Assembly (NCBI RefSeq): GCF_030056795.1
Contig: NZ_JASHKQ010000001.1
Coordinates: 1,736,001-1,800,000 of the forward strand
Reading direction: 5' to 3'
Length of the DNA stretch: 64,000 bases
DNA from: Rhodococcus sp. IEGM 1381
GTDB taxonomy: Bacteria; Actinomycetota; Actinomycetes; Mycobacteriales; Mycobacteriaceae
Shown: positions 5,177-43,234 of the stretch, in pieces
Layout of the letters: every line of letters starts with the position of its first letter
How positions within the stretch are numbered: position 1 is the stretch's first letter
Notes under the pieces: model-generated
Databases searched by the model: none
Told to the model about the DNA's origin: nothing
The model's input: the letters and a program-made list of their open reading frames with translations, nothing else
Position numbers and translations under genes: made by a program

Positions 5177-6246
5177 ATCGGGTGCGGACGAGCGTGGGCG
5201 ACGAGTCGGAACAGCGAGGCGTTCCGGCTGAAGTCGTCGGTCTCGCTCGCACGAATGCGCGGCGGGCCGCGGGGTTGTTCGTCGTCATCGGAATCCTCGC
5301 CGCGCTGTGCCTGGTGAGTATCGCGGTGGGTACCGAGTACATTCCCCTCGGTTCGGTGTGGCACGGCCTGTTTTTTCCCGACGGGTCGACCGACTCCGTG
5401 ATCGTCCGCGAACTACGGCTTCCGAGAACGGTTCTCGGGCTTCTCGTCGGAGCCGCGCTCGGGGTTGCCGGTGCACTGATTCAGGCGATGACGCGAAATC
5501 CTCTGGCCGACCCGGGCATCCTGGGTGTCAATGCCGGAGCGGCATTCTTCGTTGCGATCGCCGTCGGTGTGCTGGGCTTCACCGGTATCGACTCCTACAT
5601 CTGGTTCGCGTTCGCCGGTGCCGCGCTCGCCGCGGTCGCGGTGTACGCATTGGGCTCGATGGGGCGAGCGGGCGCAACGCCGATTCGCCTGACGCTGTCC
5701 GGAATTGCGCTCGGTGCGGTACTCGGCGGCATCACCTCGGGCATGCTGCTCCTCGACCCGGACGCCTTCGACAGGATGCGGTTCTGGAGCGCGGGATCAT
5801 TGGCCGGGCGCGACCCGAACATTGCGATCACGACTGCCCCGTTCATGGCTCTCGGACTGTTGCTGGCCGCCCTCGTCGCACGTCCGCTCAACGCGATCGC
5901 CCTCGGTGACGATCTGGCGCAGTCGTTGGGGGCACGAGTGATTCGTGCGCGCATCATCGGTGTCGTCGCGGTGACTCTGCTCGCCGGCGCCGCGACCGCT
6001 GCGGCCGGGCCCATCGGATTCGTCGGACTGATGATCCCGCACATGGTGCGGTGGTTCGTCGGGCCGGATCAGCGCTGGATTCTGATCTACACGGTGTTCG
6101 CGGCACCGGGGCTCCTGCTGCTCTCCGACGTGGTGGGGCGCATCGTGATTCGGCCGGGCGAGCTTCAGGTGGGCATAGTCACCGCATTCGTCGGCGCTCC
6201 GGTACTGATCGTGCTGGTCCGCCGCAAAAAGGCGAGCGGACTGTGA
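5173..6246 (+). CDS. FecCD-family iron-siderophore ABC permease, first subunit
   Basis: This 357-residue membrane protein has about nine to ten hydrophobic segments and hallmark FecCD stretches (LRLPRTVLGLLVGAALG, QAMTRNPLADPGILG, AGPIGFVGLMIPHMVR). It forms half of the membrane channel importing a ferric siderophore. The start is GTG 5173, inside the stop region of the hydroxylase gene. The second permease starts four bases before its end, so the two are coupled. Confidence 0.88.
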   Translation: MNRVRTSVGDESEQRGVPAEVVGLARTNARRAAGLFVVIGILAALCLVSIAVGTEYIPLGSVWHGLFFPDGSTDSVIVRELRLPRTVLGLLVGAALGVAGALIQAMTRNPLADPGILGVNAGAAFFVAIAVGVLGFTGIDSYIWFAFAGAALAAVAVYALGSMGRAGATPIRLTLSGIALGAVLGGITSGMLLLDPDAFDRMRFWSAGSLAGRDPNIAITTAPFMALGLLLAALVARPLNAIALGDDLAQSLGARVIRARIIGVVAVTLLAGAATAAAGPIGFVGLMIPHMVRWFVGPDQRWILIYTVFAAPGLLLLSDVVGRIVIRPGELQVGIVTAFVGAPVLIVLVRRKKASGL

Positions 6247-29191: not shown

Positions 29192-29299
29192 ATGCCTGCC
29201 CAAGCGTGGGTAACTCTCGTGGTGGGCGTCCTCGCCGTCGTCGGAGTAGCGCTCACTGTCCGCCAGCGCACCGTCGCCGACAAACGCGCTCAGGCTTGG
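29192..29299 (+). pseudogene. Gene X copy A, 5' part (interrupted by element 1)
   Basis: Thirty-six codons of a small gene start at ATG 29192 with MPAQAWVTLVVGVLAVVGV, a single membrane segment followed by RQR. They run to Trp36 (TGG 29297-29299), where the sequence changes to the left end of element 1. The 3' part is found at 31509-31733. The second copy at 35142 breaks at exactly the same codon. Unlike copy B there is no Shine-Dalgarno upstream, and the VOC gene ends seven bases before, so the island edge probably lies here. Confidence 0.75.
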
Positions 29300-29360
29300 C
29301 TTCACTTGTCCGTTGGACACGTGTCCGGAGCTCTTCTGCGAGGTGCTCCAGCTTCTGTCG
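29300..29360. repeat. Left end of element 1
   Basis: The sequence closely matches 35250-35310, the left end of element 2, and contains the 12-bp palindrome GGACACGTGTCC at 29315-29326. TTCACT and GTTGGACA near the tip recur inverted at the right end (31491-31508). The 29361-29495 stretch up to the deformylase gene shows nothing further. Confidence 0.65.
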
Positions 29361-29495
29361 ACTTCGCAATGCACTCCGGCGCTTCAATGCGAACAGGCTA
29401 AGAGGAGTGGACCGCAGGAACGGCGGCAGTTCCTTCCCCGATGACGCGTGCATCTGTACGGTTTCTCGTTGCCACATCCAGAAGCGGAGTGGAAC

Positions 29496-30071
29496 ATGAA
29501 CGTTATGCCTGTCTCTGAACTTCTTCGTCTCGGCACCGCGCGCCCGATCGTTCGTTGGGGCACGTCGGTGCTTCACGCCCCAGCTCGACCAGTCACCGAT
29601 TTCGGCAGTGATCTCCAAGAACTGTTGGCCGACATGTTCGCCACCAACACAGCCGCTGACGGTGCGGGTCTAGCCGCACAGCAAGTCGGCGTTGATCTGG
29701 CGGTATTCATCTACGACTGCAGCGACGAGACCGGGCGACCGCGCACCGGCGTGGTCTGCAACCCGGTCGTCGAACTGCCGGAAGGAAATGATCGGCGACT
29801 CATCGATTTTGGGGAAGGGTGCCTGTCACTACCCGGCGCATACACCGATCTCGCACGACCCGAGTTCTCAACCTGCCGCGGCCAGGACCAGTACGGCGAC
29901 CCGCTCGAACTTACCGCCGGCGGCACGCTCGGACGCTGTTTTCAACACGAGACCGACCACATCAACGGGATGGTGTTCGGCGATCGACTGTCAACGCGTA
30001 AGCGCAAGCAGCTCTACCTCGACCATGAGGTGGTCTCCGACCGCTACGGAACAGAGTGGCCAGCAAAGTAA
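29496..30071 (+). CDS. def: Peptide deformylase (element cargo)
   Basis: This 191-residue enzyme removes the N-formyl group from new proteins. All three motifs are intact: GAGLAAQQ at 56-63, EGCLS at 107-111 with metal ligand Cys109, and HETDH at 151-155. The actinobacterial-type length and the C-terminal DRLSTRKRKQLYLDHE are normal. ATG 29496 has GGAG upstream and starts a typical N-terminus. As cargo of a mobile element it is presumably an extra copy; a resistance role against deformylase inhibitors is a guess. Confidence 0.88.
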   Translation: MNVMPVSELLRLGTARPIVRWGTSVLHAPARPVTDFGSDLQELLADMFATNTAADGAGLAAQQVGVDLAVFIYDCSDETGRPRTGVVCNPVVELPEGNDRRLIDFGEGCLSLPGAYTDLARPEFSTCRGQDQYGDPLELTAGGTLGRCFQHETDHINGMVFGDRLSTRKRKQLYLDHEVVSDRYGTEWPAK

Positions 30072-30090
30072 GTCCGTCAGTTCCGCAACC

Positions 30091-30849
30091 TCAGTGCTCG
30101 ATTTCGCTGTGCTGCAGATAATCTGCGCCTCCGACGTAGAACGTTTGCCCAGATTCGATGGCCGTGGTCGATGCTTGAACGACGACCTGAGCGAACTCCT
30201 CGATGGTCGGTAGGACACCGTGGTCGCGGCGTACAGCCACTGCGTCGGGGTCTCGCCGTTCGAGCAGGCGCACGATGATGGTCCCGTCGATCATGTCTCC
30301 GGACACGACGGCGAGGTCGATCTGCTGTCGTTGTAGTTCGGGAATGAGGGCTCGAAGACCGTCTTCGCCCGCCCGCTTGCTGAGAGCAATCGGCTCGTAG
30401 TCTTCGGGCACAGGTTTCTGGCCGACGAAATGAGCTTGGTGGCTGGTGACGAACACGATTCGGCTGGTACGTCGCATCAGGGGCTGTGCAAGTTTCGTCA
30501 GTCTCAGCTGTGCGTCGCGGTTCAACTGCATCGCATAGTCCGGTCCTGCGCCCAACTCCAACCCGCCGGAAGCGTTGAGGACTACCAAATCGAGGTGTCC
30601 AAATCGATCTGCGAGCAACGCGACCATGGCCTCGACGCTCTTCGCGTCGGCGAGGTCTGCCTGAAGAGCTAGAGCTTTGCTTCCGGCAGACTCGATCTCG
30701 CTGACCACCTTCTCCGCTCGAGCCCGCTTTTCGCGGTAGTTGACAACGACGAGGTAGCCAGCAGATGCGAGCTGGAGGGCAACCTCAGCACCAATCCCGC
30801 GCGAAGCGCCAGTCACCAGAGCAATCCGTTCCACCGTGTCCACTGTCAT
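30091..30849 (-). CDS. SDR-family oxidoreductase (element cargo)
   Basis: This 252-residue short-chain dehydrogenase has the cofactor motif TGASRGIG near residue 14, NASGG near 92 and the catalytic-region VFVTSHQAH with DYEPIALSKRAGE. The Tyr-to-Lys spacing is wider than the usual YxxxK, so the exact active site is unclear. The substrate is unknown. It converges with the deformylase gene (19 bases) and is divergent from the HxlR regulator, which probably controls it. Confidence 0.8.
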   Translation of the reverse strand: MTVDTVERIALVTGASRGIGAEVALQLASAGYLVVVNYREKRARAEKVVSEIESAGSKALALQADLADAKSVEAMVALLADRFGHLDLVVLNASGGLELGAGPDYAMQLNRDAQLRLTKLAQPLMRRTSRIVFVTSHQAHFVGQKPVPEDYEPIALSKRAGEDGLRALIPELQRQQIDLAVVSGDMIDGTIIVRLLERRDPDAVAVRRDHGVLPTIEEFAQVVVQASTTAIESGQTFYVGGADYLQHSEIEH

Positions 30850-30910
30850 CCCTGCCCGTCATTCGCCAGCGCTCATGCTTCTGATTCAGAAGTAACTATG
30901 ATGGTTCGAA

Positions 30911-31276
30911 ATGAGAAGCGCAAATGAGACACCACCTGATCGGGCGGGCAGCGACGAGGAAACAGCGGCCGCCCGTAGCGCAATGGATCTTCTGGGCCAG
31001 CGTTGGAGCCTGCGCATCGTGTGGGAACTCGAAGCCGGTCAGATGGGGTTCCTGGAGCTGCGTCGGCGCATGAACAACTGCTCATCGAGCATGCTGGCCG
31101 AGCGACTTCGGCAGCTGCAGGACGCGGGGGTTGTCGAGAAGAATGCGAAGCGTGCTTACGAACTCTCGTTCACCGGTATTCGGTTGAGTCAGGCGTTGGA
31201 ACCGTTGTGGGACTGGTCCCGGGTCTGGGCTTCAGGCGAGCGGTTCGACCCATTCCCTCCTGGAGGTCCGCAGTGA
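30911..31276 (+). CDS. HxlR-family transcriptional regulator (element cargo)
   Basis: This 121-residue winged-helix protein has AMDLLGQRWSLRIVWELEAG, FLELRRRMNNCSSSMLAERL and RAYELSFTGIRLSQALEPL. Two adjacent features, Cys58 and the divergent SDR gene 61 bases away, fit a redox- or electrophile-sensing HxlR/oxidoreductase pair. That is inference from the arrangement. Confidence 0.8.
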   Translation: MRSANETPPDRAGSDEETAAARSAMDLLGQRWSLRIVWELEAGQMGFLELRRRMNNCSSSMLAERLRQLQDAGVVEKNAKRAYELSFTGIRLSQALEPLWDWSRVWASGERFDPFPPGGPQ

Positions 31277-31388
31277 GCTGCTCACCTCCACACGTCATGC
31301 CGCGGTCGTGCAACATCGCCGCCTCGTTCATGGGCAGCTGGGCATTCGGTGCCTTTCCCTAGCGCGGAGTAGCAGAGGTTGCTGCGTA

Positions 31389-31505
31389 GAAGCTGTGTCG
31401 GCTCTTGTTGTCGAGCTGACTCTTGCGCAGGAGCGCAATAATTCAGTGCATCTGCGCTCGAATCGAGGCCGGGAGAATTTCGCGGACGCGACTGTCCAAC
31501 AGTGA
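31389..31505 (+). pseudogene. 3' remnant of a TnpC-like transposition gene (element 1)
   Basis: Thirty-eight codons plus TGA encode a tail (SALVVELTLAQE ... DATVQQ) that is about two-thirds identical to the C-terminus of the TnpC-like protein at 42597-43004. The rest of the gene and all recombinase genes are missing. The 31277-31388 gap before it shows no other gene. The right end of element 1 overlaps its last codons. Confidence 0.7.
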
Positions 31506-31508
31506 ACC
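31491..31508. repeat. Right end of element 1
   Basis: ACTGTCCAACAGTGAACC is identical to the right end of element 2 at 42990-43007. Read inward it gives TTCACT and GTTGGACA, which also occur at the left ends. Gene X resumes immediately after it at TGG 31509. Confidence 0.65.
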
Positions 31509-31733
31509 TGGCAACGGATCACGTGGTGCCTCGAACGCACCACCAGCGCCGACCCCGCCGAAGCCGAACTCGGATGGGACATCTACGCCACCGTCACCGA
31601 CTCACCGCTCATCACCACCACCGAACAAGACGTCCTCGTCGCCGTCGCCGACCGATCCGCCCGACGTGCACTGGCGGAACCCGACGAAACCGAGGACACT
31701 GACAACCAGAACGAGCAGGAGGACCCACGATGA
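31509..31733 (+). pseudogene. Gene X copy A, 3' part
   Basis: This is an open frame of 74 codons plus TGA with no start codon of its own, reading WQRITWCLERTTSADPAEAE and containing DSPLITTTEQDVLVAVADR. Joined to the 5' part through the shared Trp codon, it restores a gene product of about 109 residues: one N-terminal membrane segment and a soluble C-terminal part. I do not recognise the family. It overlaps gene Y by four bases. Confidence 0.7.
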
Positions 31734-31903
31734 CCACCGCAGAAGCCCGCAAGACCTGGACCCCGAACGAACGGCGCAGTGTCGCTGCCGCAGCAGCCCG
31801 CGCCTCGATCGCACTCCGTGAACGCAGCGGCCGCGAGGTACCCCAGTGGATCCGCGACGCCGCCGAAGGGCGCCCCACCACCCCACCGGCCGAGCAGCCC
31901 TGA
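31730..31903 (+). CDS. Gene Y copy A: small hypothetical protein
   Basis: This gene encodes a 57-residue protein, MTTAEARKTWTPNERRSVAA then AAARASIALRERSGREVPQW and a proline-rich end. It is coupled to gene X by an ATGA overlap. Copy B at 43231-43392 is clearly homologous, with near-identical centre and tail, so the frame is conserved and likely real. A short helical protein, perhaps a partner of X; the function is unknown. Confidence 0.65.
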   Translation: MTTAEARKTWTPNERRSVAAAAARASIALRERSGREVPQWIRDAAEGRPTTPPAEQP

Positions 31904-32025
31904 CACCGGCCACAGCCGCAGACCGACAAGGCCCGCACCCCGACACAGGTTGCGGGCCTTCTCTATTGCCTCACTGACTAAAAGCGCTGCGAGCAGGGCC
32001 GGGCCACCCTGCGGGCGTCCACCGG

Positions 32026-32059
32026 ATCGAACTCCGCTGCGCTCCGTCCTGTGGAAAGA
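32026..32059. repeat. 34-bp direct repeat, copy 1
   Basis: This 34-base stretch is identical to 33770-33803. The two copies flank the pentapeptide-repeat gene, 1.74 kb apart, and similarity continues imperfectly for about 25 bases upstream. The rest of the 31904-32165 gap holds no gene that I can support. Confidence 0.7.
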
Positions 32060-32165
32060 ATTCTTGTTTTCCTTTACTCGACGACGGGACACCGAAAACG
32101 GAAATCGCGTTAGTTCTCGGAATCGGTCGAGCCACCCTCTACCGTCACCTCAGTCCAATGGCCGG

Positions 32166-33602
32166 CTAATGCGATTCGCGCGTATCACTGCGGTTGCCCG
32201 GTAACAGTTCCCGTTGACGAGACACTTCAACCGGGTACACCAGAAGCGGTGCCAGGATGCTTGCGATCCGGTTCAGCTCAGCCTCCGACACCAAAGCCGA
32301 CAGCTCGGAGTGTTGCAGACGCTGCGTGAGCTCGGTCGTCGTCGGGGTCGCCCCCAATCGAAGAGTGTCTACTTCTGGCCCGATTGCTTCGGTGGCCGAA
32401 TTGCTTGCCGACGTTGACTTATCTCTGCGACTCTCGTGCTCCGTGGTGTCGGCGTCGGCTCGTGTTTTTCGCGATACTTCTTCAGCTGTGTCGGCGTCGG
32501 CTCGTGTTTTTCGTAAAACTTCTTCAGCGGTATTCGCCTCTGCCCGTGCATCCCGCATCGCGAAATAAGCATCCCGTTCACTGCGTCGCGCCAGCGTTAG
32601 CATCAACGAGAAGACACGGACTCCATCCTCGGCACTTTCGCGCGCGCGCTTCACGACGATTGCCGCAGGGCCCGCAACCGCAGCAGCCCCCGCCGCGAAC
32701 GCGGGGGCGGCATCCCAGAGCTGATGGAACCATAAACTTCCATACTGAATGCGCTGCAGGACAATTGGACCAAAATCGTCGCCCGCCGTTGCAGTCAGGA
32801 CGCTGGTCCCGCGACCCCTATCGTCATCACGCAGTAAACGGCGTCCGAGCTCCGCGCCAACCCGTTGTGACATCTCGGCGACCACAGCGATCGCATCCGA
32901 CAAACGCGCCAACTCGCCGGCGTCCATGCCTCCGGGGAGGTCAGGAATCGCGATTCGCACCGTCCCCGGATCCGGGACGTCGGAGCCGCCGACTTTAGAC
33001 GGGTGACGACCGATCAAAAAATCACCGACGTGCAAACCCTGAGTGTTACGCGTCGAGCCAGACACAGACAGGTCGCCAAGTCGAGTGCCGTTCAGCTTTG
33101 CGCCGGTGAGGTTTGCGCCGGCGACATTCGCGCGGGTGAGGTTCGCGCGGGTGAGGTTCGCGCGGGTGAGGTTCGCGTTGATGAGATCCGCGCCGATCAG
33201 GTTCGCGTTGGTGAGGTTCGCGTTGGTGAGGTTCGCGTTGGTGAGATCCGCGCCGGCGAGGTTCGCATAGGTGAGATCCGCGCCAACCAGGTGCGCACGG
33301 TCAAGATCCGCGCTGAGGAGGTCCGCGTCGGTGAGATTCGCGTCCTCAAGGAAGGCGTGGGTGAGGTTCACGTTGTCGAGGAAGGCGTGGGTGAGGTTCG
33401 CGCCTCCGAGAGCCGCGCCAGCGAGGTCCGAGCCCGTGAGATACACGCCCACGAGGTCGGCGTCGGAGAGGTCCGCGCCACCGAGGTCCGAGTTAGTGAG
33501 GTCGATAATCTGTCCGGCTGGTCGGAGGGCGCGTTCGCTACGAAATTCCGACCACGTCCTCCCCCCAACCAATAGAGCTTCGAGAGCCTGCTCGTCCGCC
33601 AT
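32166..33602 (-). CDS. Pentapeptide-repeat protein with coiled-coil C-terminal region
   Basis: This 478-residue protein begins MADEQALEALLVGGRTWSEF. Residues about 30-160 are a run of A(D/N)LxX pentapeptides, which fold as a right-handed quadrilateral helix. A hydrophobic stretch (FAAGAAAVAGPAAIVV) near 300 could be a membrane segment. It is followed by a helical region with a duplicated SRKTRADADT-type repeat and a tail rich in Leu. ATG 33602 is chosen since the upstream reading crosses the direct repeat. No known effector domain is seen. The gene sits between 34-bp direct repeats. Confidence 0.75.
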   Translation of the reverse strand: MADEQALEALLVGGRTWSEFRSERALRPAGQIIDLTNSDLGGADLSDADLVGVYLTGSDLAGAALGGANLTHAFLDNVNLTHAFLEDANLTDADLLSADLDRAHLVGADLTYANLAGADLTNANLTNANLTNANLIGADLINANLTRANLTRANLTRANVAGANLTGAKLNGTRLGDLSVSGSTRNTQGLHVGDFLIGRHPSKVGGSDVPDPGTVRIAIPDLPGGMDAGELARLSDAIAVVAEMSQRVGAELGRRLLRDDDRGRGTSVLTATAGDDFGPIVLQRIQYGSLWFHQLWDAAPAFAAGAAAVAGPAAIVVKRARESAEDGVRVFSLMLTLARRSERDAYFAMRDARAEANTAEEVLRKTRADADTAEEVSRKTRADADTTEHESRRDKSTSASNSATEAIGPEVDTLRLGATPTTTELTQRLQHSELSALVSEAELNRIASILAPLLVYPVEVSRQRELLPGNRSDTRESH

Positions 33603-34060
33603 GATCACGAAGAGTATAGGAAGCAGATTGGATTCCCTTAGTGTCACTTCGGGGCTGGGGAATCGCGAAGCTTGAAGATGCAAAGAGCAGAAGCCAGGGC
33701 GCAATAGCACGACCCGGGCGGCGTCCCACCCGTTGCGGCATGGCCCGGGGCCACCTGCGGTGTCCACGAATCGAACTCCGCTGCGCTCCGTCCTGTGGAA
33801 AGAGCAATTCTTTCGCACATCTGGCTTTCTCCGAGCATGCGTCACCCTGGCCCGTCTTACCCACCCCTGACTCCGCGATGCTCCGGCCCTTCGGGCTCCA
33901 GAAACTTTTCAAAGCGCCTGCGGCTGAAAACTTTCCGTCTCAGGGGTAGGACGCCGTTCCATGCCGCCGCCTTCTCTTCCCAAGCCAGATGACGGCGAAA
34001 GAAATTGGCACGAGCGAAGGGCCGGGGGGAGCCGGTCCCGCGAGAGAAGGAGACCCCGAC
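33603..34060. other. 458-base gap with direct repeat copy 2 and a leader for Z1
   Basis: This stretch holds direct repeat copy 2 (33770-33803). Its end contains a good ribosome-binding site, AAGGAG at 34047-34052, for gene Z1. I see no protein-coding or RNA gene in the rest. Confidence 0.5.
33770..33803. repeat. 34-bp direct repeat, copy 2
   Basis: Identical to 32026-32059. It lies 168 bases upstream of the pentapeptide gene start. Together the copies look like the boundaries of a cassette or of a past duplication. Confidence 0.7.
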
Positions 34061-34624
34061 ATGCCGAAGAACACCACCCGCCCCGCACGCAAGAACACCG
34101 CAGCAGGAAACGCCCAGACCCCCGCCATCGTCACCCACACCACCGCCATCATCACCGGACCCCAGAACGCCACCATCAGCATCACCGCAGCAGGCACCGA
34201 GCACGCGCAAATGGTCGTCGCGTTCGGGCACCTCATGATGACTTTCCGCAGCGCCGAAGCGGTCTGCGACGTCATCGCCGGATTCGCCACCGTCCGATCG
34301 GCCCTCGCCGGAGCCGACGGACACGCCCCGTACCCGCAGCAGCCTGGCGCGGAGTTCGGCGCACCCGCAATCTCGATTCTCTGGCTCGGCGGCCCCGAAC
34401 ACACGGTGATACCGGGCGCCCGCTACGTCCCCGAGCAACGCCGCACCGTGCACTGGGTGGACCTGCACATGGGGCCGATCACCTGGCGCGTCACCGACCG
34501 TGTCGGATACGACACCCTCATGGACGAGTTCCGCCGCGTCCACCGCGCCGCGGTCGGCGTCTTCCTAGACGGAGGCCGCTACCGCCGCGATCCGTCCAAG
34601 ATCCTCGACTCGTTCGACGACTGA
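34061..34624 (+). CDS. Gene Z1: hypothetical protein
   Basis: This 187-residue protein has a basic N-terminus (MPKNTTRPARKNTAAGN) and a globular remainder with GHLMMTFRSAEAVCDVIAGF, ISILWLGGPEHTVIPGARYV and MGPITWRVTDRVGYDTLMDE. I do not recognise the family. It has no signal peptide or membrane segment. ATG 34061 follows AAGGAG at a spacing of eight. It precedes Z2 and gene X copy B on the same strand, with codon use matching them, so the three may form a unit. Confidence 0.65.
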   Translation: MPKNTTRPARKNTAAGNAQTPAIVTHTTAIITGPQNATISITAAGTEHAQMVVAFGHLMMTFRSAEAVCDVIAGFATVRSALAGADGHAPYPQQPGAEFGAPAISILWLGGPEHTVIPGARYVPEQRRTVHWVDLHMGPITWRVTDRVGYDTLMDEFRRVHRAAVGVFLDGGRYRRDPSKILDSFDD

Positions 34625-34801
34625 CCAATAGCACACCTCGGCCCCGCACCCGCGGGGCCGAACGTGTTCATCCACAACCCCGACCCCGCTCCACAGACCA
34701 CCGGAATTCCGGTTCGCGTCGCACGACTCGCTGCGCTCCCCGGTGCGACGCTGAGCAGCACGCAGCCACCCGCCTCAGGTCAGAAAGGGAAGCCACCGTC
34801 G

Positions 34802-35107
34802 ATGATCACCTGGACCGTCACCACCCGCCCCGAGAACAGTCCCGAGCTCCTCACCGCCAGCGGAGCCGAAACCACCCTCGCCGACGCCAAGAGAGCCGCC
34901 GCAGACGCCGTCCGCTACGCCCTCCTCGACGCCACCGAGCACACCTCACCCGACAACGGCTGCGCACCGTCCTACCTCGTCACCCTCGACGGCACTTGCG
35001 CCCTCATCGTCGGACTCGGCCGTTGCCGACCCGCCAACTACAACGGCGTCCTCGACAGCCTGGAACGCTTCGACGGCACCGCACCACCACACCTGCTCTA
35101 CCTGTGA
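34802..35107 (+). CDS. Gene Z2: hypothetical protein
   Basis: This 101-residue protein reads MITWTVTTRPENSPELLTAS, then a helical LADAKRAAADAVRYALLDA and a C-terminal YLVTLDGTCALIVGLGRC. It is unrecognised, soluble and acidic. AAGGGA precedes ATG 34802. It lies 34 bases before gene X copy B and is probably co-transcribed with it. Confidence 0.6.
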   Translation: MITWTVTTRPENSPELLTASGAETTLADAKRAAADAVRYALLDATEHTSPDNGCAPSYLVTLDGTCALIVGLGRCRPANYNGVLDSLERFDGTAPPHLLYL

Positions 35108-35141
35108 GCGGACCCCGACCCAAAGGAAAGGAACCATCCGT

Positions 35142-35249
35142 GTGCCCGCACAAGCATGGGTCACCCTCATCGTCGGCATCTTCGCAACCATCGGCGTGAC
35201 CGCAACCCTCCGCCAACGCACCAGCAGCGAGAACCAAGCGCAAGCCTGG
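35142..35249 (+). pseudogene. Gene X copy B, 5' part (interrupted by element 2)
   Basis: Thirty-six codons start at GTG 35142 with AAAGGAAAGGA upstream, reading MPAQAWVTLIVGIFATIGVT and ending at Trp36 (35247-35249). It is homologous to copy A at 29192 and cut at exactly the same codon, followed by the left end of element 2. The remainder is at 43008-43234. Confidence 0.75.
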
Positions 35250-35310
35250 CTTCACTTGTCCGTCGGACACGTGTCCGGAGCATGTCTGCGAAGTGCTCTC
35301 GCCTCGTCAT
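35250..35310. repeat. Left end of element 2
   Basis: Matches the left end of element 1 (29300-29360), including the palindrome GGACACGTGTCC at 35265-35276 and TTCACT at the tip. Confidence 0.65.
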
Positions 35311-35322
35311 CTAATGCTTCCA

Positions 35323-35643
35323 TCAACTTCGCGGTGGGTCCTCGCGACGTTGCATGCTGGTGGTGAAGATCTGGTGCACCGAGCTCATCTCGGGAGGACG
35401 GATACACCTCTCGTCGAGGCTGCGACGGTACTCCTGGAACGTCGGCAGCGTTTGTAGAAGCTCGGGCTCGGCATCACCGGAGACGAGGGCGATAAATGCC
35501 CCTTCGCCAATGTGGTACGTGTCGTAGTTCAGCACGCCTGCAGGTAGCTGTTCGAGTTCGGCATAGACATCGCCCAGGCGGGTGAGTTCTTCTTCGATGT
35601 GCGCATGCTTGATCGTGTAGTGGATGACAACTGTGCCTGTCAT
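35323..35643 (-). CDS. Small antibiotic-biosynthesis-monooxygenase-like protein (element cargo)
   Basis: This 106-residue protein starts MTGTVVIHYTIKHAHIEEEL and contains DVYAELEQLPAGVLNYDTYH and FIALVSGDAEPELLQTLPTF. The ferredoxin-like pattern and size resemble ABM or quinol monooxygenase domains. It overlaps the FMN reductase gene by four bases, so the two are one operon and might act together on a quinone or other aromatic. The family assignment is tentative. Confidence 0.55.
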   Translation of the reverse strand: MTGTVVIHYTIKHAHIEEELTRLGDVYAELEQLPAGVLNYDTYHIGEGAFIALVSGDAEPELLQTLPTFQEYRRSLDERCIRPPEMSSVHQIFTTSMQRREDPPRS

Positions 35644-36230
35644 GCGATCAATTCAGGGTGCCGAATGGGTCGGAGTGCTTGAGCCCACTGTTCAAGGTCG
35701 TCCAGTGCCCGTGCGAGATCGGCTTCACGCTCTGCGGCTGGGTTGAACGTTGCATATCCTTCGAAGTCCGTTCCGAATCTGAGGGCGAGGCTCGCACGCA
35801 CGTCGGCGAGCTTCAGCTCGCCGCAGATCTGCCGCAACTGCTCGACCGCGCGAATACCGCCATCGAAACCGTAACTGACGAAGGTGGCGGCCTTGTCGTT
35901 CCACTCCGCAAACAGCAGGTCGAGGGCGTTTTTCAGCACCGCTGGAGGTGCGTGGTTGTACTCCGGAGTGACGAAGAGGAACCCGTCGTACGCCTGGATC
36001 GTCGAGGCCCACGCCACTGTGTGAGGCTGGCTGTATTGTCCGGCCATCGGCGGGAGCACTTCATCTATGAACGGCAAGTTGACCTGCGCAAGGTCGATGA
36101 CTTCGTACGTCGCCGCTGGGCGATTTCTTGACAGGCCGGCAACCCAGTCTGCGACGGTTCGGGCATGGCGACCGGGGCGAGTTGATCCAGCGATAATGGC
36201 GAGACGAAGCGGGTGAGATGACGTGGTCAA
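35640..36230 (-). CDS. NADPH-dependent FMN reductase (element cargo)
   Basis: This flavodoxin-fold reductase of about 196 residues has the FMN phosphate loop GSTRPGRHA near the start, VTPEYNHAPPAVLKNALDLL in the middle and YGFDGGIRAVEQLRQICGEL later, all typical. The start is uncertain. TTG 36230 preceded by a G-rich stretch gives a normal length, while an upstream ATG at about 36287 would overlap the TetR start. It is divergent from TetR, its likely regulator. Confidence 0.75.
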   Translation of the reverse strand: MTTSSHPLRLAIIAGSTRPGRHARTVADWVAGLSRNRPAATYEVIDLAQVNLPFIDEVLPPMAGQYSQPHTVAWASTIQAYDGFLFVTPEYNHAPPAVLKNALDLLFAEWNDKAATFVSYGFDGGIRAVEQLRQICGELKLADVRASLALRFGTDFEGYATFNPAAEREADLARALDDLEQWAQALRPIRHPELIA

Positions 36231-36269
36231 ACGGAGCCCCCGGAGGATTGATTGTATGGGAAAACGGTG

Positions 36270-36944
36270 ATGGCAGAAACTATACATAACGCTGGCGGTC
36301 CGACTGCCCGAGGCGGTCGGCCGACCAAGCGTGCGCAGATCGAGAAGGCAGCCAGGGAGGTGTTCGGACGAGTCGGGTTCGGGGACGCCACGATGGACTC
36401 CATCGCAGCTGAGGCGCAGGTGTCGACCAGGACCCTCTATCATCACTTTCGGTCCAAGAACGACCTCTTCGCTGCCGTCCTGACCGCCAGCGCGTCGTTG
36501 GTTGCGGACGATTTCTCGCGCGCAGCGGAGGAGTCCTTGTGCACCTCCGACGTGCGATCGGCGCTGCTGGTGCTGGGCCATGCGTTCGTCGAGCAGCGGA
36601 CAAGCCACCCGCAGCACTTCGCCATGGTGAATCAACTGAGGGCCCGCGCGGTTTGCCTCACCCCGGACCAAACCACAACATGGCATAACGCCGGCCCGTA
36701 TCGAGTGCAGGCCGAGGTTGCCTCGGTGCTCGACGAGCTTGGACGCCGTCGATGGCTCAGAGTCCCAGACGTTCGGCAGGCAATGTTGCATTACGTCGCG
36801 TTGACGACCGCCGAATCAACCATCCGACCCTTCGCGGCTGAAGCACTCACACCGCGTCAAGTTCAACCCATGGTCACAGCCGGCGTCGCCGCTTTCCTCC
36901 GAGCGTATGGAACGGACACTATGCCGATCCCTCCGATCAGCTGA
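36270..36944 (+). CDS. TetR-family transcriptional regulator (element cargo)
   Basis: This 224-residue regulator has an N-terminal helix-turn-helix, KAAREVFGRVGFGDATMDSI followed by VSTRTLYHHFRSKNDLFAAV, and a helical ligand-binding C-terminal part. It is divergent from the FMN reductase operon, so control of that operon is likely. ATG 36270 is preferred; an upstream in-frame start at 36252 is possible. Confidence 0.82.
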   Translation: MAETIHNAGGPTARGGRPTKRAQIEKAAREVFGRVGFGDATMDSIAAEAQVSTRTLYHHFRSKNDLFAAVLTASASLVADDFSRAAEESLCTSDVRSALLVLGHAFVEQRTSHPQHFAMVNQLRARAVCLTPDQTTTWHNAGPYRVQAEVASVLDELGRRRWLRVPDVRQAMLHYVALTTAESTIRPFAAEALTPRQVQPMVTAGVAAFLRAYGTDTMPIPPIS

Positions 36945-37002
36945 CGTCAGAATCCGACGAAATGCCCACCTCGAACGTCCGGGCGACGTCAGGATTCGTC
37001 GA
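36943..37002. repeat. Pair of imperfect 18-bp direct repeats upstream of the recombinases
   Basis: GACGTCAGAATCCGACGA (36943-36960) and GACGTCAGGATTCGTCGA (36985-37002) differ at four positions. A further GACGTCGA follows at 37008. They lie between the TetR stop and the first recombinase start (GTG 37161) and could be protein-binding sites controlling or recruiting the recombinases. The rest of this 216-base gap shows nothing clear. Confidence 0.5.
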
Positions 37003-37160
37003 CAACTGACGTCGAGGTTCACAGACAAGGCCTGGTGAAGGACCTGTTCAGGGACAGTCGGTCCGCGTGTCTGGCTCGGATTACTTGCTGGTCGGTAATA
37101 CCCTGCAGGTATGAGGCCAGGTCTGGACCGCGCTCGACTCGCTATCGGTTGAGGTGAATC

Positions 37161-38651
37161 GTGACGGTCGGCTGGTTCGTGAGGTTCTACGATTTCAGCC
37201 GCCCGTTCGCTCGAGTTGCCGTCGCGGGCGTCGCTTTCGACGATGTTCTTACACTAGCCAAAGCCAACGGTGCCAGACATGGGACGCCGTACTTCCTGAG
37301 TCCAGGAGGCAGGGTCGATGGTCGGCTCAATGCTTTCTGGCGCTCACCGGTGCTATGGGGAACAGCCGAGAGCACAGTCCGTCGCTACGCCCTCAGCATC
37401 AAAGTCTGGTTGGACTTCCTACACGTCATGGACGTCGAATGGACCGCGGCCACCCCGAACGACCTCGCAGCGTTCAAGAGCTGGCGGATGTCAGTAGAAA
37501 GCAATCCAGATCCAGTATCTGCCAACACTTTCCGGTTGGACCTGGCCGCCGTGCGGAAGCTGTATCTGTGGGCCGCAGATGAGTGCGGTGTGGCGAATCC
37601 CGTGCGGAGCCATGTGCTGTCGGGTAGCTACCGAGGTGAAATGAAACTGGACGCCACGCCCTCAGGTATCCGCAGGTCAGACGTCAAGTGGATGACGCCT
37701 TCGGCATTTCGACAGTGGCGCACCATCGGTTTGAGTGGGTACACGCGCGACGGCGAGCAGCGTGAGCAGTGGGTTGGTCGCACGGAGGACCGCGACGTCG
37801 CGTACGTGGACGGGCTTTACGGTGCCGGGTTGCGGATGGGGGAGTGGGCCAGCGTGCTCACGTCCGAGATTCCCGGGGTCTCGTCAGAGCGATTACTGCG
37901 CCTCAGACTCGCATCGGCCTGCGCAAAGTCCGGTGTCTCCCGTCCTTACTGGTTGCCGCGAGCGGTCTTGCAGGCCGTTCGGTTCTATATCGAGGACGGT
38001 AGCCGTCAGGCGGCAGTGGCAGCTGCTCGGTGCAGGGGGCTTTACGACGTCGTTCCCAACAAATGGGTGGTCGATGAGATCGGTTCGAAAGGCGTCTTGC
38101 AAGCCGTGGATCAGGACGGGATGCGACGTCGGGTGAATGTGGACAGCGTGGGTCCGTCGTTGCGGACCCGGCTGTTCATCCGTACTCCGGCGGGGTTGGA
38201 ACCGATGATGTTGTTCCTCGGTAGGGATGGTCTTCCCCGACCTAAAGCTGCTTGGTACAACACCTTTCGTGATGCAAACATGCGCGCGACGAAGGAGTTG
38301 GGTGATCGGTCCGGAAGGTTGTGGTGCCGCCCGCACATGCTGCGGCACAGCTTCGCGCTGCGGTGGTACTGCATCGCGACGTTCGTCGCCTGGCAACGAA
38401 CCGACATGCTCACCGACGCAGAGCGTCGCGATTTCCGTAATCAACTCGGAGACGTGTGGTTCTTGTTGTCGACGTTGCTCGGGCACCGAAGCGCGGAAAC
38501 TACCAGGCAGGTCTATCTGGAGCCGTTTCAAGGATTACAGGTCGAACAACTGGTGGCGCTGATGGACGCCGACGATCGGGACGCGCTGGAGCGGTTGGCC
38601 GGCGCTGTCGGCGCCGGGCACCCGCGTGTCATAGAGGGGATCGAGCCGTGA
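37161..38651 (+). CDS. Tyrosine recombinase A (Tn554 TnpA/RIT-like integrase)
   Basis: This 496-residue site-specific recombinase has a complete catalytic set: Arg225 in GAGLRMGEW, His392 and Arg395 in PHMLRHSF, His442 in LLGHRSAETT and nucleophile Tyr452 in RQVYLEPF. An N-terminal core-binding region precedes it (STVRRYALSIKVWLDFL). GTG 37161 has GAGG upstream. It overlaps recombinase B by four bases (GTGA). In the Tn554 and recombinase-trio families, such first recombinases act with one or two partners to move the element. Confidence 0.85.
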   Translation: MTVGWFVRFYDFSRPFARVAVAGVAFDDVLTLAKANGARHGTPYFLSPGGRVDGRLNAFWRSPVLWGTAESTVRRYALSIKVWLDFLHVMDVEWTAATPNDLAAFKSWRMSVESNPDPVSANTFRLDLAAVRKLYLWAADECGVANPVRSHVLSGSYRGEMKLDATPSGIRRSDVKWMTPSAFRQWRTIGLSGYTRDGEQREQWVGRTEDRDVAYVDGLYGAGLRMGEWASVLTSEIPGVSSERLLRLRLASACAKSGVSRPYWLPRAVLQAVRFYIEDGSRQAAVAAARCRGLYDVVPNKWVVDEIGSKGVLQAVDQDGMRRRVNVDSVGPSLRTRLFIRTPAGLEPMMLFLGRDGLPRPKAAWYNTFRDANMRATKELGDRSGRLWCRPHMLRHSFALRWYCIATFVAWQRTDMLTDAERRDFRNQLGDVWFLLSTLLGHRSAETTRQVYLEPFQGLQVEQLVALMDADDRDALERLAGAVGAGHPRVIEGIEP

Positions 38652-40442
38652 CGGTGGGAAGGCCCGCTACGGCGCCTCCGGCGGGGTGGGCACCGCCATT
38701 TGTATGCGGTCCAGAGCTCCAGGTGCCGTTCATCAGTGAGGACGGGACACAACGCGCCGTCTTCGATTTCCATCGCCTGCCCTGTGACGCCAGGGTGCGA
38801 AAAGAATTGGCGACGTGCTTCACCGCCGTGAACGGGCCGTTGGGGACGAGCCATCGGGTAAAGACTGCGCAATCATATTGGGGCACAGTTCGATTCGTCT
38901 CGAAATGGCTGGCCGAGACGCGCCCGGGACTGCGATCGCTGAGCGAGCTGACCGCGGCGGACATCGAAATAATCTGCATGGCACTGCGGTTGCCGAGTGG
39001 GGACAAACGTTGTTACGAGTTTCGGGTGCTTCTGCGTGCCGGCCCGGTGCAGCTCCGACCGGGCGTCATCGACAGGTTCGCTCAGTTCGACAGAAAGGTT
39101 CGATCCGACCCAGCACAGCCGTATTCCGACGTCGAATTCCAACGCATCACAACGGTATTGCGCGCGATGGTTCGGAATGCGAAAAACCGGCTGCGTGAAC
39201 ATCGTCAGCTGGTCACGGACTACCGCACCGGAAAATTCGATGACCTCGATCGAAACGAACCACGCGTGATTCTTGCCGAGGTGCTCGATCACTGCATGCG
39301 GACTGGCTCACTTCCCCTGACCGGCATACGCACTCCGAAGCGATCCGCCAGGGCGTGGCAGGCGTATCTCATCGGCGGCAGCCGTCCCCTCCGCACGCTG
39401 ATTCACCTGACCGCCGGGGAAGCGTGGGCATTTGTAATGTTGCTGGCCGCGACCACCGGACACAACCGATCGGTCATCGAAGCCCTCCCTGCCCGTCACC
39501 ATCTCGCGACCGCAGCGGACGAGCCGCAGATTGCCCTGGTTGAGATGAACAAACCGCGGAGGTCGGCGAGCTCGAATGACCGTTCCCCTGACCGACGTGC
39601 CGCCAGAGCTACAGTCCCATACAGCGGACCCCCGTCCCCAGCACATCGCAGAGTCCTCGCTGACCACCCCATTCGGGATATTCAGCCTCCTCCTCGACCT
39701 CACCGAACCCGGCAGAACACTGCTGAACACCCAGTCGGCGTTCGTCTACTACAACCCGACCCCGCCCACCCGGGGCGCGGTCGTACTGAGCGATGGACTG
39801 CCCGCTGACGGGGACCACCGCCGTTGCCATCCCCGCTGGCTGCGCTCCTGGTTGACCGGAGACGAACAGGACGACGCTCTGCTCCTCGGGATTGGCTTCA
39901 ACCGTATGCGCAAGACCTATCTGGAGCGGACCCGGACGCCGACCGCACATTCTCCGGCAACGCTGGCCGGTTACCTCTCCCGGATGGACACTGTCCGTCT
40001 CGAAGGATTTCAGATCGTCCACGAAGCATTGGCGGAACAAGTCGAGTCGGCGCTCACCCGCCGTGAGATGACACTCGTGCGGAATGCGTTGGTCGCGGGC
40101 GACGATACGGCGTTGGGGGTGTGCACCGACTTCACTCATTCACCTCTCGATGGTGGTCGGACATGCTCTCAAAACTTCCTCAGTTGTCTGGACTGTTCCA
40201 ATGCCAGAGCGTTACCTCGGCATCTTCCTATGCAGCTCGCCGTCCTCGACGCGCTGCGCGGCCTCAGAGCCGCTCTGACAGCCCATCGATGGGCACTCGA
40301 ATACGCTGGTCGTGTCGCGCAGATCGAGGACATGCTCAGCGCATACGAGCCTGCACAAGTGCGGGCGGCCCGCGAGAAGATCTCCGGCGATGAGCGCCGC
40401 CTGGCTCTGCGATTACTGGACGGAGTGTTCGACACACCATGA
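38648..40442 (+). pseudogene. Tyrosine recombinase B, frameshifted
   Basis: Two open pieces make up one gene. The first (38648 to about 39570) encodes about 308 residues including TTGHNRSVIEAL, a divergent box I. The second (39576-40442) gives 288 residues with NRMRKTYLERT, THSPLDGG, CSQNFLSCLDCSNA and LPRHLP, a cysteine-rich motif of large Tn554 TnpB-type proteins, and a Tyr candidate in SPATLAGYL. The frame changes near 39571-39580, and the first frame runs on as noise to 39808. Joined, the product would be about 597 residues. The second piece could start at ATG 39576 if both halves are expressed. Confidence 0.65.
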
Positions 40443-42615
40443 GTCGGCCAGCATCGGCATCCGTGCCCGAATTTCCCGTAATCGACGGCATTGCAGCGGT
40501 TCCCGATGCTCCCGTCTTCCACCGCAGGCCGTTACACGAAGTCGAGGCGATTGGTGCACCTCGGTTCGGTGACGATCTCTGGGACCTCACACCCGCGATG
40601 CATCTCAGACACCGGAAAGTGACAGTGAACTGGCTGGCGTTTCCTGCCGAGTTCCGTGAACCGATGAAGCTTTACACCTTCGCGCTGATCAACGTCACCG
40701 ACCGTTCCCCACGGCTCGTCGCCGCCAACAGCGGATTCCCATCCCTTCCGACGATCAAGCACGACCTGCAGCACTTGCGGCGTTTTGTCGAGTGGCTTGT
40801 CGGACGCGGCTGTCACAGGTTCGATCAGCTCGACGACGATGACCTGGACGGCTACGCCAGGCTCGTTCTTTCCAGAGAAGATACTTCGGCGAGGGTCAAA
40901 CGCTCGTTGTTGTGTGCGGTCATGAGACTGCATGCATACCGGGAATACCTGCCAGAACGCTGTCAACTGCAGGTCGTCCGTTCTTTGTGGGGAGCAGCCA
41001 CCGCAGGTCAGATCGTGGGCGTTTCAAAGGCAAGCAGATCGGAGAACGCAACACCTCGCATCACGCCGGATGTCATGGGAGCACTGCTGTCCGCTGCGCT
41101 CGTCACCATCGACGTCATCGGCCCCGACATACTCGGCGTCGCCCTCACGCTGTCGACCATGCGGCGAATTGCTCACGAGAGTATTCGCGGGCACCAGCCA
41201 TCTCGATGGGGTAAGCCTGATCTGGCCGGCGCGGCAGCCAGGTTCGAGACCGTACTTCCCGCGCTGCGGGCTGCGGGAATCCCCATACCGGGAATCGGAG
41301 GCAGCGACCCCGGCATCGATGTCGAAGGCCTTGCGGTCGGCAGTCTCATGGACACGACAACCCTCAAGGGGATGTCCTCACTGATCTGCGACATCGCTCA
41401 ACAACGGATCCCGACCACAGTGGACCTACTGCGAGTAGTCAACTTTTCAGAGATTGATGGACGTCGATGGCGAGATGAACCTGTCGAAGCCGTGAGTTGC
41501 TCAAGCTGGTCGATCACGTCGTCGCAGCGTGTTTGGTGCTCACCACCTATTTGTCGGGCATCCGGCCAGGGGAAGCACTGAACTTGCGACGCGGTTGCAT
41601 AAGCCGTTCGAAAACCCTCGAGCTCGTGTTCCTCTCGGGCACCCAAGAGAAGGCTCAACCCGTTCGCCGAGAGCGCTCACCTGCGACCATCCCGTGGGTT
41701 GTTACCGAGCATGTCGGCAGGGCCATCGCTCTCCTGGAGCAACTCGCCCCAGGCGATCTACTGTTCCCCTTCGCCGGGAGATACACACCAAATGCGTTCC
41801 GCCACGCCAATTCCCGTGTCATGTCCGCCAGTCGTGCAAACCAGCGAGTGCGTGCTTTTGTCGAGTGGTTCAACACCGACGTTGCGGGGAAAGTCGGACA
41901 CGAGCAGATAGCCGCCGACCCCCATGGGCCGATCACGCTGTCTCGTTTTCGCCGTACATTGGCCTGGCACATTGTCCGCCGACCGGGCGGGCTCATTGCC
42001 GGAGCAATTCAGTACGGTCATCTGCGAACTCAGATCACCCAAGGCTATTCCGGTCAGGCCGATTCGGGATTCAACGACGACGTTGGTTTCGAGGAGTTTC
42101 TGATGCGCTGCGAGACCATCCATGCAGATCATGAACGGCTGGGATCTGGCGAACATGTTTCCGGCCCAGCGGCCAGCAGCTACGTCAGTAGGGTCACCAC
42201 TGCCCGAGAGTTCCTCGGGCACAGTGTGAGTTCCCCAGCGCAAGCACGGGCGTTACTCGCCAACGAAACCTTGCAGATCCATCACGGAACGTTCCTCACC
42301 TGCGTTTACCGAGCTGAGACGGCAGCGTGTCGAGACTTCTCCCAAAGCGCCGCGACTCCGATCTGGCGGAAATGCAAGCCCAGCTGTCGCAACATCGCTC
42401 GAACCGACCAGGACATCGGCGCTCTCGAAGCGCACAACGACGAGTTGATCAGCGACCCACTCCACCTGCATCTACCGCTTCCGCTACGGGCGCGCCTCAA
42501 CGAACGCACAACGTCGAACTCGTCGATCATTTCCAACCATCGAGACACTGCGGCATCCGCTTCCGAACTGCGCAAACCTCAATCACAGGCGGCAACATGG
42601 ACAAGCGAGCTCTGA
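40439..42615 (+). pseudogene. Tyrosine recombinase C, frameshifted
   Basis: The first piece (40439 to about 41490) encodes about 350 residues of N-terminal and core-binding region. The second (about 41492-42615) continues LLKLVDHVVAACLVLTTYLS with box I Arg in SGIRPGEAL, a box II-like SRFRRTLAWHIV, GH in QYGHLRTQ and Tyr in ITQGYSG, and a cysteine-rich tail. The frame changes near 41490; in the original frame it stops at 41581. The joined length is about 725 residues. It overlaps recombinase B by four bases and the TnpC-like gene by 19. Confidence 0.65.
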
Positions 42616-43004
42616 TCCAGAACGCAATCGCAAACCTCACTTCGGGGAACCCGACATGCTCGGACGGCAAGCTCACAATCAGCAACTTGGCGAAGGAAGC
42701 AGGCCTGCACCGGCAGAGGCTCTACGACGAATTTCCCGACCTAGTCGAGCAATTCAGAACGCAAGCGGGGTCATTCACCTCGGTCGGTGCCCAAAAGCAG
42801 TTGCACCTCGCAGAATCCACCATCGAGCAACTCGGCAAACGTAATGACGAACTTGTCCAGCGGGCGAAGGAACTCGAACTGCGAATAGAAGCCCTTTCTG
42901 CTCTCGTCGTCGAACTGACCCTCCAGCAGGAGCCGCGCAATCTGGTGCATCTTCGTCCGAATCACGGTCGGCAGAAGTCCTCGGACACCACTGTCCAACA
43001 GTGA
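42597..43004 (+). CDS. TnpC-like transposition accessory protein
   Basis: This 135-residue protein has a helix-turn-helix-like N-terminal part (TISNLAKEAGLHRQRLYDEF) and a coiled coil over about 75-115 (ESTIEQLGKRNDELVQRAKE). It occupies the position of TnpC in Tn554, last in the transposition operon and adjacent to the element end. Its C-terminus is the part preserved as a remnant in element 1. ATG 42597 lies inside the end of recombinase C. Confidence 0.7.
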   Translation: MDKRALIQNAIANLTSGNPTCSDGKLTISNLAKEAGLHRQRLYDEFPDLVEQFRTQAGSFTSVGAQKQLHLAESTIEQLGKRNDELVQRAKELELRIEALSALVVELTLQQEPRNLVHLRPNHGRQKSSDTTVQQ

Positions 43005-43007
43005 ACC
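42990..43007. repeat. Right end of element 2
   Basis: ACTGTCCAACAGTGAACC is identical to the right end of element 1. It overlaps the stop of the TnpC-like gene, and gene X resumes at TGG 43008. Confidence 0.65.
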
Positions 43008-43234
43008 TGGCAGCGGATCACCTGGTGCCTCGATCACACCGTCAGCACAGACGACGCCGAAGCTGCCCTGGGGTGGGATATCTACGGGGCGGTTACGGAC
43101 TCCCCGCTGATAACCAGAACGGAGCAGGATGTCCTGGTGGCCCTCGCCGATCGCGCTTGCGGCATGCACTGGCGCAACCCGACGAATACGAGGACACTGA
43201 CAATCGAGGCGATGAGCTCGAGGAGTTGCGATGA
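43008..43234 (+). pseudogene. Gene X copy B, 3' part (also frameshifted)
   Basis: Resumes gene X as WQRITWCLDHTVSTDDAEAA, parallel to copy A. The frame is lost near 43155, where copy A reads ADRSARRALAEPDE; here the matching RHALAQPDEYEDTDN is in another frame and ends at TGA 43232-43234. So copy B is broken twice: by the element and by a one-base change. It ends in the same overlap with gene Y as copy A. Confidence 0.65.

Follow-up and report, generated by a model that had tools for sequence, protein, structure and literature searches.

A 64,000-nucleotide stretch of DNA from Rhodococcus sp. IEGM 1381 (contig NZ_JASHKQ010000001.1, positions 1,736,001 to 1,800,000; hereafter the window) was analysed for two inserted elements, E1 and E2, that interrupt a small gene designated gene X. 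All coordinates are those of the window. The first 5′ half of gene X (codons 1–36; 29192–29299, forward strand) lies at a purQ–glyoxalase locus and ends with RAQAW. The second (35142–35249, forward strand), assigned by comparison with homologues, ends with QAQAW. Both stop at Trp36, and the two 3′ halves, at 31509–31733 and 43008–43234 on the forward strand, each start with TGG and encode the identical peptide WQRITWCL. The 31509 half is of another lineage (Z type) and is open to its stop codon; the 43008 half, on the side of the M18 aminopeptidase gene, is frameshifted. A sequence-only reading had proposed that two copies of one gene are split at the same codon, and both the common end point and the common restart are as it described.

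Element E1 (29301–31506, forward strand) is 2,206 bp in length and lacks recombinase genes. Element E2 (35251–43005, forward strand) is 7,755 bp in length and carries a four-gene recombinase operon, with 5,948 bp at 91% identity to an element in a second genome (E4 in G022). The elements adjoin 6-bp cores on the forward strand: CTTGGC at the left end of E1 (29295–29300), which is the same as the core of the empty locus L015 in genome G014, and CCTGGC at the right end of E1 (31507–31512), the left end of E2 (35245–35250), and the right end of E2 (43006–43011).

Ends, Cargo, and Recombinase Operon

With the 31509 half as the query, 26 homologous proteins were found, and 23 of these contain 108–112 residues. 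The chain runs directly from AQAW to QRITW, with substitutions in a few, in 17 of the 19 homologues that were aligned; the QRITW stretch is lacking in the other two (P0024 and P0025). One gene X locus was taken from each of 30 genomes. The gene is uninterrupted at codon 36/37 in 27 of these loci, which include three distant relatives (L029–L031) and one locus with TGA at the site (L014). The other three are broken exactly at this position, by E1, by E3 (G008), and by E4. The shared breakpoint is not explained by chance. The TGA in L014 (genome G013, purQ locus) stands in place of the Trp36 codon; together with the frameshifted 43008 half, it makes gene X seem dispensable there.

E1–E4 are bounded on both sides and have imperfect inverted ends, TTCACT...AGTGAA, that adjoin a 6-bp core of the form CNTGGY. 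The left ends have TTCACTNGTCCNNNGGACACNTGTCC in common, and the right ends close with CTGTCCAACAGTGAA. The inverted-repeat alignment score was reached by none of 500 shuffled controls for six of seven elements (E1, E2, E4, and the three plasmid pLPS8 elements described below) and by 2 of 500 for E3; the right end of E1 was placed one base short in this test. The first 49 bp of E1 and E2 are 89.8% identical and the last 129 bp, which take in the 3′ end of the fourth operon gene, are 74% identical. The inserted DNA differs in size and cargo while its ends match, as had been proposed. The common left end extends over about 49–57 bp among E1, E2, and E4 and over 29 bp for E3, and the common right end over 26–32 bp among E1–E4. 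E3 and E4 are 2,836 and 11,253 bp in length. Inside the ends, the only DNA shared among E1–E4 is the operon stretch common to E2 and E4, together with a tail of the fourth operon gene (gene D) in E1. This remnant, with the right end, occupies 31382–31506 (forward strand) and matches the end of E2 at 74% DNA identity over 129 bp; the ends and the gene D tail are all that E1 has in common with E2.

The cargo of E1 consists of a peptide deformylase-like gene (29448–30071, forward strand; PF01327, E 2.5e-40), which is also found in E6 of genome G030 with 91% protein identity, a short-chain dehydrogenase (30091–30849, reverse strand; PF00106), and an HxlR-type regulator (30911–31276, forward strand; PF01638). 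E2 carries an NADPH-dependent FMN reductase (35640–36218, reverse strand; PF03358) and a TetR-family regulator (36252–36944, forward strand; PF00440). A Rv3651-like gene is found in E3, and E4 contains an IS21 pair, a GNAT acetyltransferase, and a methyltransferase. The IS21-type istA/istB pair of E4 is located at 10814–13053 of L067.

The operon, present in E2 and unbroken in its relative E4, encodes three tyrosine-recombinase-type proteins and one small protein (genes A–D, all on the forward strand in E2). Their sizes in G022 are 496, about 598, 725, and 128 amino acids. Gene A (37161–38651) encodes a tyrosine recombinase (PF02899 and PF00589) with the full R-K-H-R-H-Y set, the residues being invariant in all seven homologues compared. 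Gene B (38648–40442) encodes a recombinase-fold protein, as judged from the fold of an unbroken homologue, in which the first catalytic arginine is not conserved. The large recombinase-type protein of gene C (40439–42615) keeps R..R..H..Y, with its first arginine, R376, invariant in seven of seven; the box-II histidine is not kept. Gene D (42597–43004) encodes a small protein with a helix-turn-helix-like N-terminus and a coiled coil, and its stop codon lies within the right end. The TetR_N and DUF6262 matches of the G022 homologue of D, at E 0.05–0.07, are not significant. Genes B and C are frameshifted in E2, and E2 may therefore no longer move itself. The lead before gene A is about 1.9 kb in E2 and about 4.0 kb in E4. 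The cargo lies ahead of gene A in E2 and on both sides of the operon in E4. A four-gene recombinase operon collinear with A–D was also observed on the gammaproteobacterial plasmid pVA172-90 of Klebsiella (L098, 4100–9462).

Insertions in Other Genomes and on Plasmid pLPS8

The left-end pattern was searched for in 37 genomes of the genus, which provided six exact matches and one with two mismatches. Every one of the seven immediately follows codon 36, whether in gene X or in a remnant of the gene, and all have a single orientation. Five of these insertions are additional to E1 and E2 and are found in four other genomes. Two of the five are in truncated copies: E6 sits in a 5′-truncated gene X, and E7 (G027) follows only about eight codons of the gene. 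These positions bear out the suggestion of the sequence-only reading that site-specific elements of one family have their attachment site within gene X. Three further left-end hits with three mismatches (G001, G026, and G029) lack TTCACT and were dropped. The right-end pattern provided four exact matches in 3 of the 37 genomes; it included five target bases and could therefore detect only gene-X-like sites. In a GTDB-based collection of 84,980 species, the exact left-end pattern appears in three stretches, all from Rhodococcus (one in sp. AW25M09 and two in sp. G-MC3).

Gene X is present in multiple copies. One conserved chromosomal place, with the order purQ, glyoxalase, X, Y, and M18 aminopeptidase, is free of elements in G009, G012, G013, G014, and G024 and is filled by different elements in the window genome, G008, and G022.

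Three copies of a 5,991-bp element that contains little besides the operon are located on the Rhodococcus opacus plasmid pLPS8 (L101, L102, and L092). The ends are again TTCACT...AGTGAA, and gene A begins 76 bp inside. The copies match at 5988–5989 of 5991 positions (99.9–100%), whereas their flanks are only 61–78% identical. The ligD-like gene that is broken differs from copy to copy, with the break at one codon, following PPHW or LPHW; in unbroken relatives of all three ligases the site is empty and in frame. By this comparison, the sister lineage on pLPS8 appears to have been mobile. An annotated gene is split by one- or two-base differences in some of the copies, so not every copy need be active.

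The target site (attB) is split and retained at the left and right junctions (attL and attR), as seen against the empty sites in G012 and G014 and in the ligase genes of DK17, JS3073, R. koreensis R85, VOC-14, and B4. The 6 bp at the junctions were compared with the nearest empty core in six cases, a count that excludes E5–E7 altogether and, for E1 and E2, the inner ends, there being no empty counterpart or no right end for these. The 6 bp of attL are the same as the empty core in four of the six: TGGGTA and TGGGTC for pLPS8 copies a and b, CATGGC for E4 (G012), and CTTGGC for the left end of the E1–E2 island (G014). The 6 bp of attR match in none of the six and differ from the empty core in all four cases where attL matches. 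PMC10214605 describes a rule for the transposons called SEs (strand-biased circularizing integrative elements), in which the 6 bp of the target stay at attL and the element's own 6 bp go to attR; its Discussion gives this rule as common to SEs and Tn554. The right 6-mer of E3, CCTGGT, creates a stop codon after Trp36, and the base responsible was probably brought in or mutated later.

There is close to an even chance that E1 and E3 are relics, that is, full elements that lost the operon by deletion, and that only operon-bearing members ever moved. E1 keeps the gene D tail at its right end, and in E5 only a fragment of gene A was detected, both of which agree with a history of loss. On the other side, E3 has no DNA match to the operon, and the deformylase-bearing left portion of E1 recurs at another locus in G030 (87% identity over 800 bp), although E6 in that genome is cut by the end of its contig and may be complete.

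Hybrid X Genes and the Segment between E1 and E2

The four halves of gene X in the window are of two origins. The 29192 half, with 40 bp upstream, is 94% identical and the 43008 half is 95% identical to the two halves of the single gene X of G014; the next best matches are 88% and 85%, respectively. The 31509 half is 98% identical to gene X of G033 (contig C11) and 73% identical to that of G014. Since the outer halves match one gene, the ancestral gene at this locus was 29192 plus 43008, with an X-bounded segment now standing between E1 and E2. The pairing of halves is less simple than in the sequence-only reading: relative to G014, the closest empty locus, the 29192 half pairs with the 43008 half. 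Joined as first read, the halves give hybrid X genes like those found unbroken in G024.

Two uninterrupted reciprocal hybrid X genes are located 3.3 kb apart in G024 (L165 and L069), and no element ends were found. X1 has a locus-type left half and a foreign right half, and X2 has the opposite arrangement. For both genes the best switch point maps to one and the same 6-bp gap at the core, contradicted by 3 of 70 and 5 of 71 informative sites; moving to a neighbouring switch point adds just one contradiction in each case, and the parents used for the mapping (G012, G033, and G035) are stand-ins. Under uniform crossover, the gap represents 6 of 286 or 280 bp. X2 seems to be frameshifted near its start. 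This leaves two readings: a precise loss of elements from G024, or recombination among X genes at the core. The mapping of the switch points to the core suggests that segments, too, have been exchanged there.

The segment between E1 and E2 contains small gene Y (31730–31903, forward strand), which follows gene X in other genomes; gene V (33989–34624, forward strand), which has no Pfam match and is found near X and Y in other genomes of the genus; and gene W (34802–35107, forward strand), which precedes gene X here, at E5, and in contig C62 of G030. The landmark translations used as queries for W, D, and the piece after_m are out of frame and mark homologous DNA only. A pentapeptide-repeat protein gene (32166–33845, reverse strand) was observed in the same segment, flanked by 37-bp direct repeats (32023–32059 and 33767–33803) that are 97% identical.

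It is quite possible, if somewhat less than probable, that the window contains one composite 13.7-kb insertion (29301–43005) in a single ancestral gene X instead of independent insertions of E1 and E2 into two X genes. The match of both outer halves to the one gene of G014, with inner halves of other lineages, and the identity of the left core CTTGGC to that of G014 are as expected for a single event. In contrast, a comparable pair of hybrid X genes stands in G024 with no elements, and the first ~530 bp of its 3,295-bp segment are 92% identical to the segment of the window, which would allow the segment to predate both E1 and E2.

Assignment and Comparison with Known Systems

E1 and E2 are very probably members of an actinobacterial branch of the SE/GInt-type site-specific transposons. 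The family looks like an unreported branch, with a new target, of a recently described kind of transposon. The exchange site, as shown by comparison of occupied and empty loci, is the 6-bp core CNTGGY, which spans codons 35–37 of gene X. The same comparison indicates a single orientation throughout, a cargo free to vary, and the existence of both operon-bearing (E2, E4, and pLPS8) and operon-less (E1 and E3) members. No description of this target turned up in open-licence PMC articles, in agreement with the sequence-only reading. Of the family itself, the target at codon 36 of gene X was correctly recognized; the type of element is not new, as the published SE/GInt kind has a matching four-gene operon, matching ends, and a matching 6-bp core.

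By analogy with SEs, GInts, and Tn554, strand cutting and joining at the element ends and at the core would be carried out by the proteins from genes A and C, B would be a recombinase-fold partner with little or no catalysis, and D would assemble or orient the complex. A circle bearing the 6 bp of its last home would insert into gene X. The left end would then retain the target's 6 bp, and those brought by the element would come to lie at the right end. Members lacking the operon would have arisen by deletion or as cargo derivatives, and any movement of these would occur in trans. Events at the core of gene X would also have set the segment (X 3′ half, Y, and onward to the X 5′ half) between E1 and E2. 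Excision, trans-mobilisation, and transfer are suggested here by comparison.

Several observations count against this assignment. All support is comparative, and neither excision nor a circle was observed. Two of the six 6-bp cases, pLPS8 copy c and E3, match the nearest empty relative on neither side, and X1 of G024, identical to the left flank of E4 at 147 of 150 positions, carries CATGGT rather than CATGGC. The right ends of E5–E7 were not found, E6 running to the end of its contig, and a complete operon was not found in E1, E3, E5, E6, or E7. The presence of cargo ahead of gene A, on the left-end side, in E2 and E4 departs from the layout published for SEs and GInts. IntB of SEs is described with RHRY, whereas the box-II histidine is not conserved in C. 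Homology of D across phyla is not significant. Membership was judged by layout and features, and the Klebsiella operon was likened by layout alone.

A further proposal, which we hold tentatively and consider rather unlikely, is that gene X serves as a recombination port. The recombinases would act on bare X cores as well as on element ends and join any X-bearing circles into chromosomal copies of gene X. Such joining would leave two reciprocal hybrid X genes, and islands would grow by X-to-X exchange, as in G024 and the E1–segment–E2 island. If this were true, the multiple copies of gene X would provide sites across the genome at which cargo elements, both autonomous and operon-less, could land and be swapped.

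Because it comes with empty sites and near-identical sister copies, a branch present in Rhodococcus, mycobacteria, and streptomycetes would provide a natural record of the 6-bp strand-bias rule. The 5,991-bp element, which is cargo-free, offers a minimal form to work with, and gene X and the ligD-like genes are two defined targets. The copy-out mechanism would become testable in a second phylum, and tools for site-specific integration in actinobacteria could follow.

Assignment to the Tn554-like transposons, with two recombinases and TnpC, is improbable. Elements of this kind with a long and a short recombinase are reported in PMC3414803 from actinobacterial plasmids including those of Rhodococcus. 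Tn554 and these elements resemble the present family in site specificity, tyrosine recombinases, a small TnpC-like protein, and the 6-bp transfer. However, the operon here has four genes, including B, and Tn554 has no Tfp counterpart according to PMC10214605. Still less credible is the spread of one ancestral insertion by homologous recombination between copies of gene X, since, for all that the gene is multicopy and its half-gene mosaics show that recombination has occurred at X loci, the elements are alike only at their short ends and unlike inside, the junctions are precise to the base, both best switch points in G024 lie in the same 6-bp core gap (neighbours costing one contradiction more each), and, most strongly, the pLPS8 copies are near-identical within dissimilar flanks.

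RIT elements also have three tyrosine recombinases in a row and inverted repeats. The archetype RIT proteins contain 315–410 amino acids and there is no fourth gene (Table 1 of PMC10214605), unlike the protein sizes and four genes of the G022 operon. Like the present family, the GInt elements, called the Tn6571 family in PMC10121019, have high site specificity, variable cargo, and an operon that encodes three recombinase-type proteins plus a small one. In PMC5385486, it is GinC that lacks the first arginine, whereas here it is the second protein, B, and C keeps it. The GInt operon bounds the 5′ end with cargo after ginD, in contrast to the cargo before gene A in E2 and on both sides in E4. The word Actinobacteria does not occur in the main text of the GInt paper.

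The closest resemblance is to the SEs. Judged from sequence, the family behaves like an SE in its inverted ends, 6-bp spacer, and retained split target, and its gene order is of SE type rather than of the GInt type as published. The SE order intA-tfp-intB-srap, which PMC10214605 presents as a catalytic recombinase, a recombinase-fold protein without the full catalytic set, a large recombinase, and a small coiled-coil protein, fits the order here and the features of B; A is complete and C lacks a conserved box-II histidine. Both have imperfect inverted ends and a 6-bp spacer. SEs keep the target's 6 bp at attL and have a foreign 6-mer at attR, a pattern seen here in four of six cases, the other two agreeing with the nearest empty core on neither side. 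In SEs, intA adjoins the left end (motif C), an arrangement found in pLPS8 and not in E2 and E4. The SE hosts reported in PMC10214605 are Gammaproteobacteria and no other taxa, whereas the elements here are found in Rhodococcus, Mycobacterium, and Streptomyces. Unlike SEs, cargo may precede gene A, operon-less members exist, and the targets are gene X and ligD-like genes. The family is not filed as SE because its likeness to reference SEs was judged by layout and features, E2 and E4 have cargo ahead of gene A, only four of six cases follow the 6-bp rule, and the host range is new.

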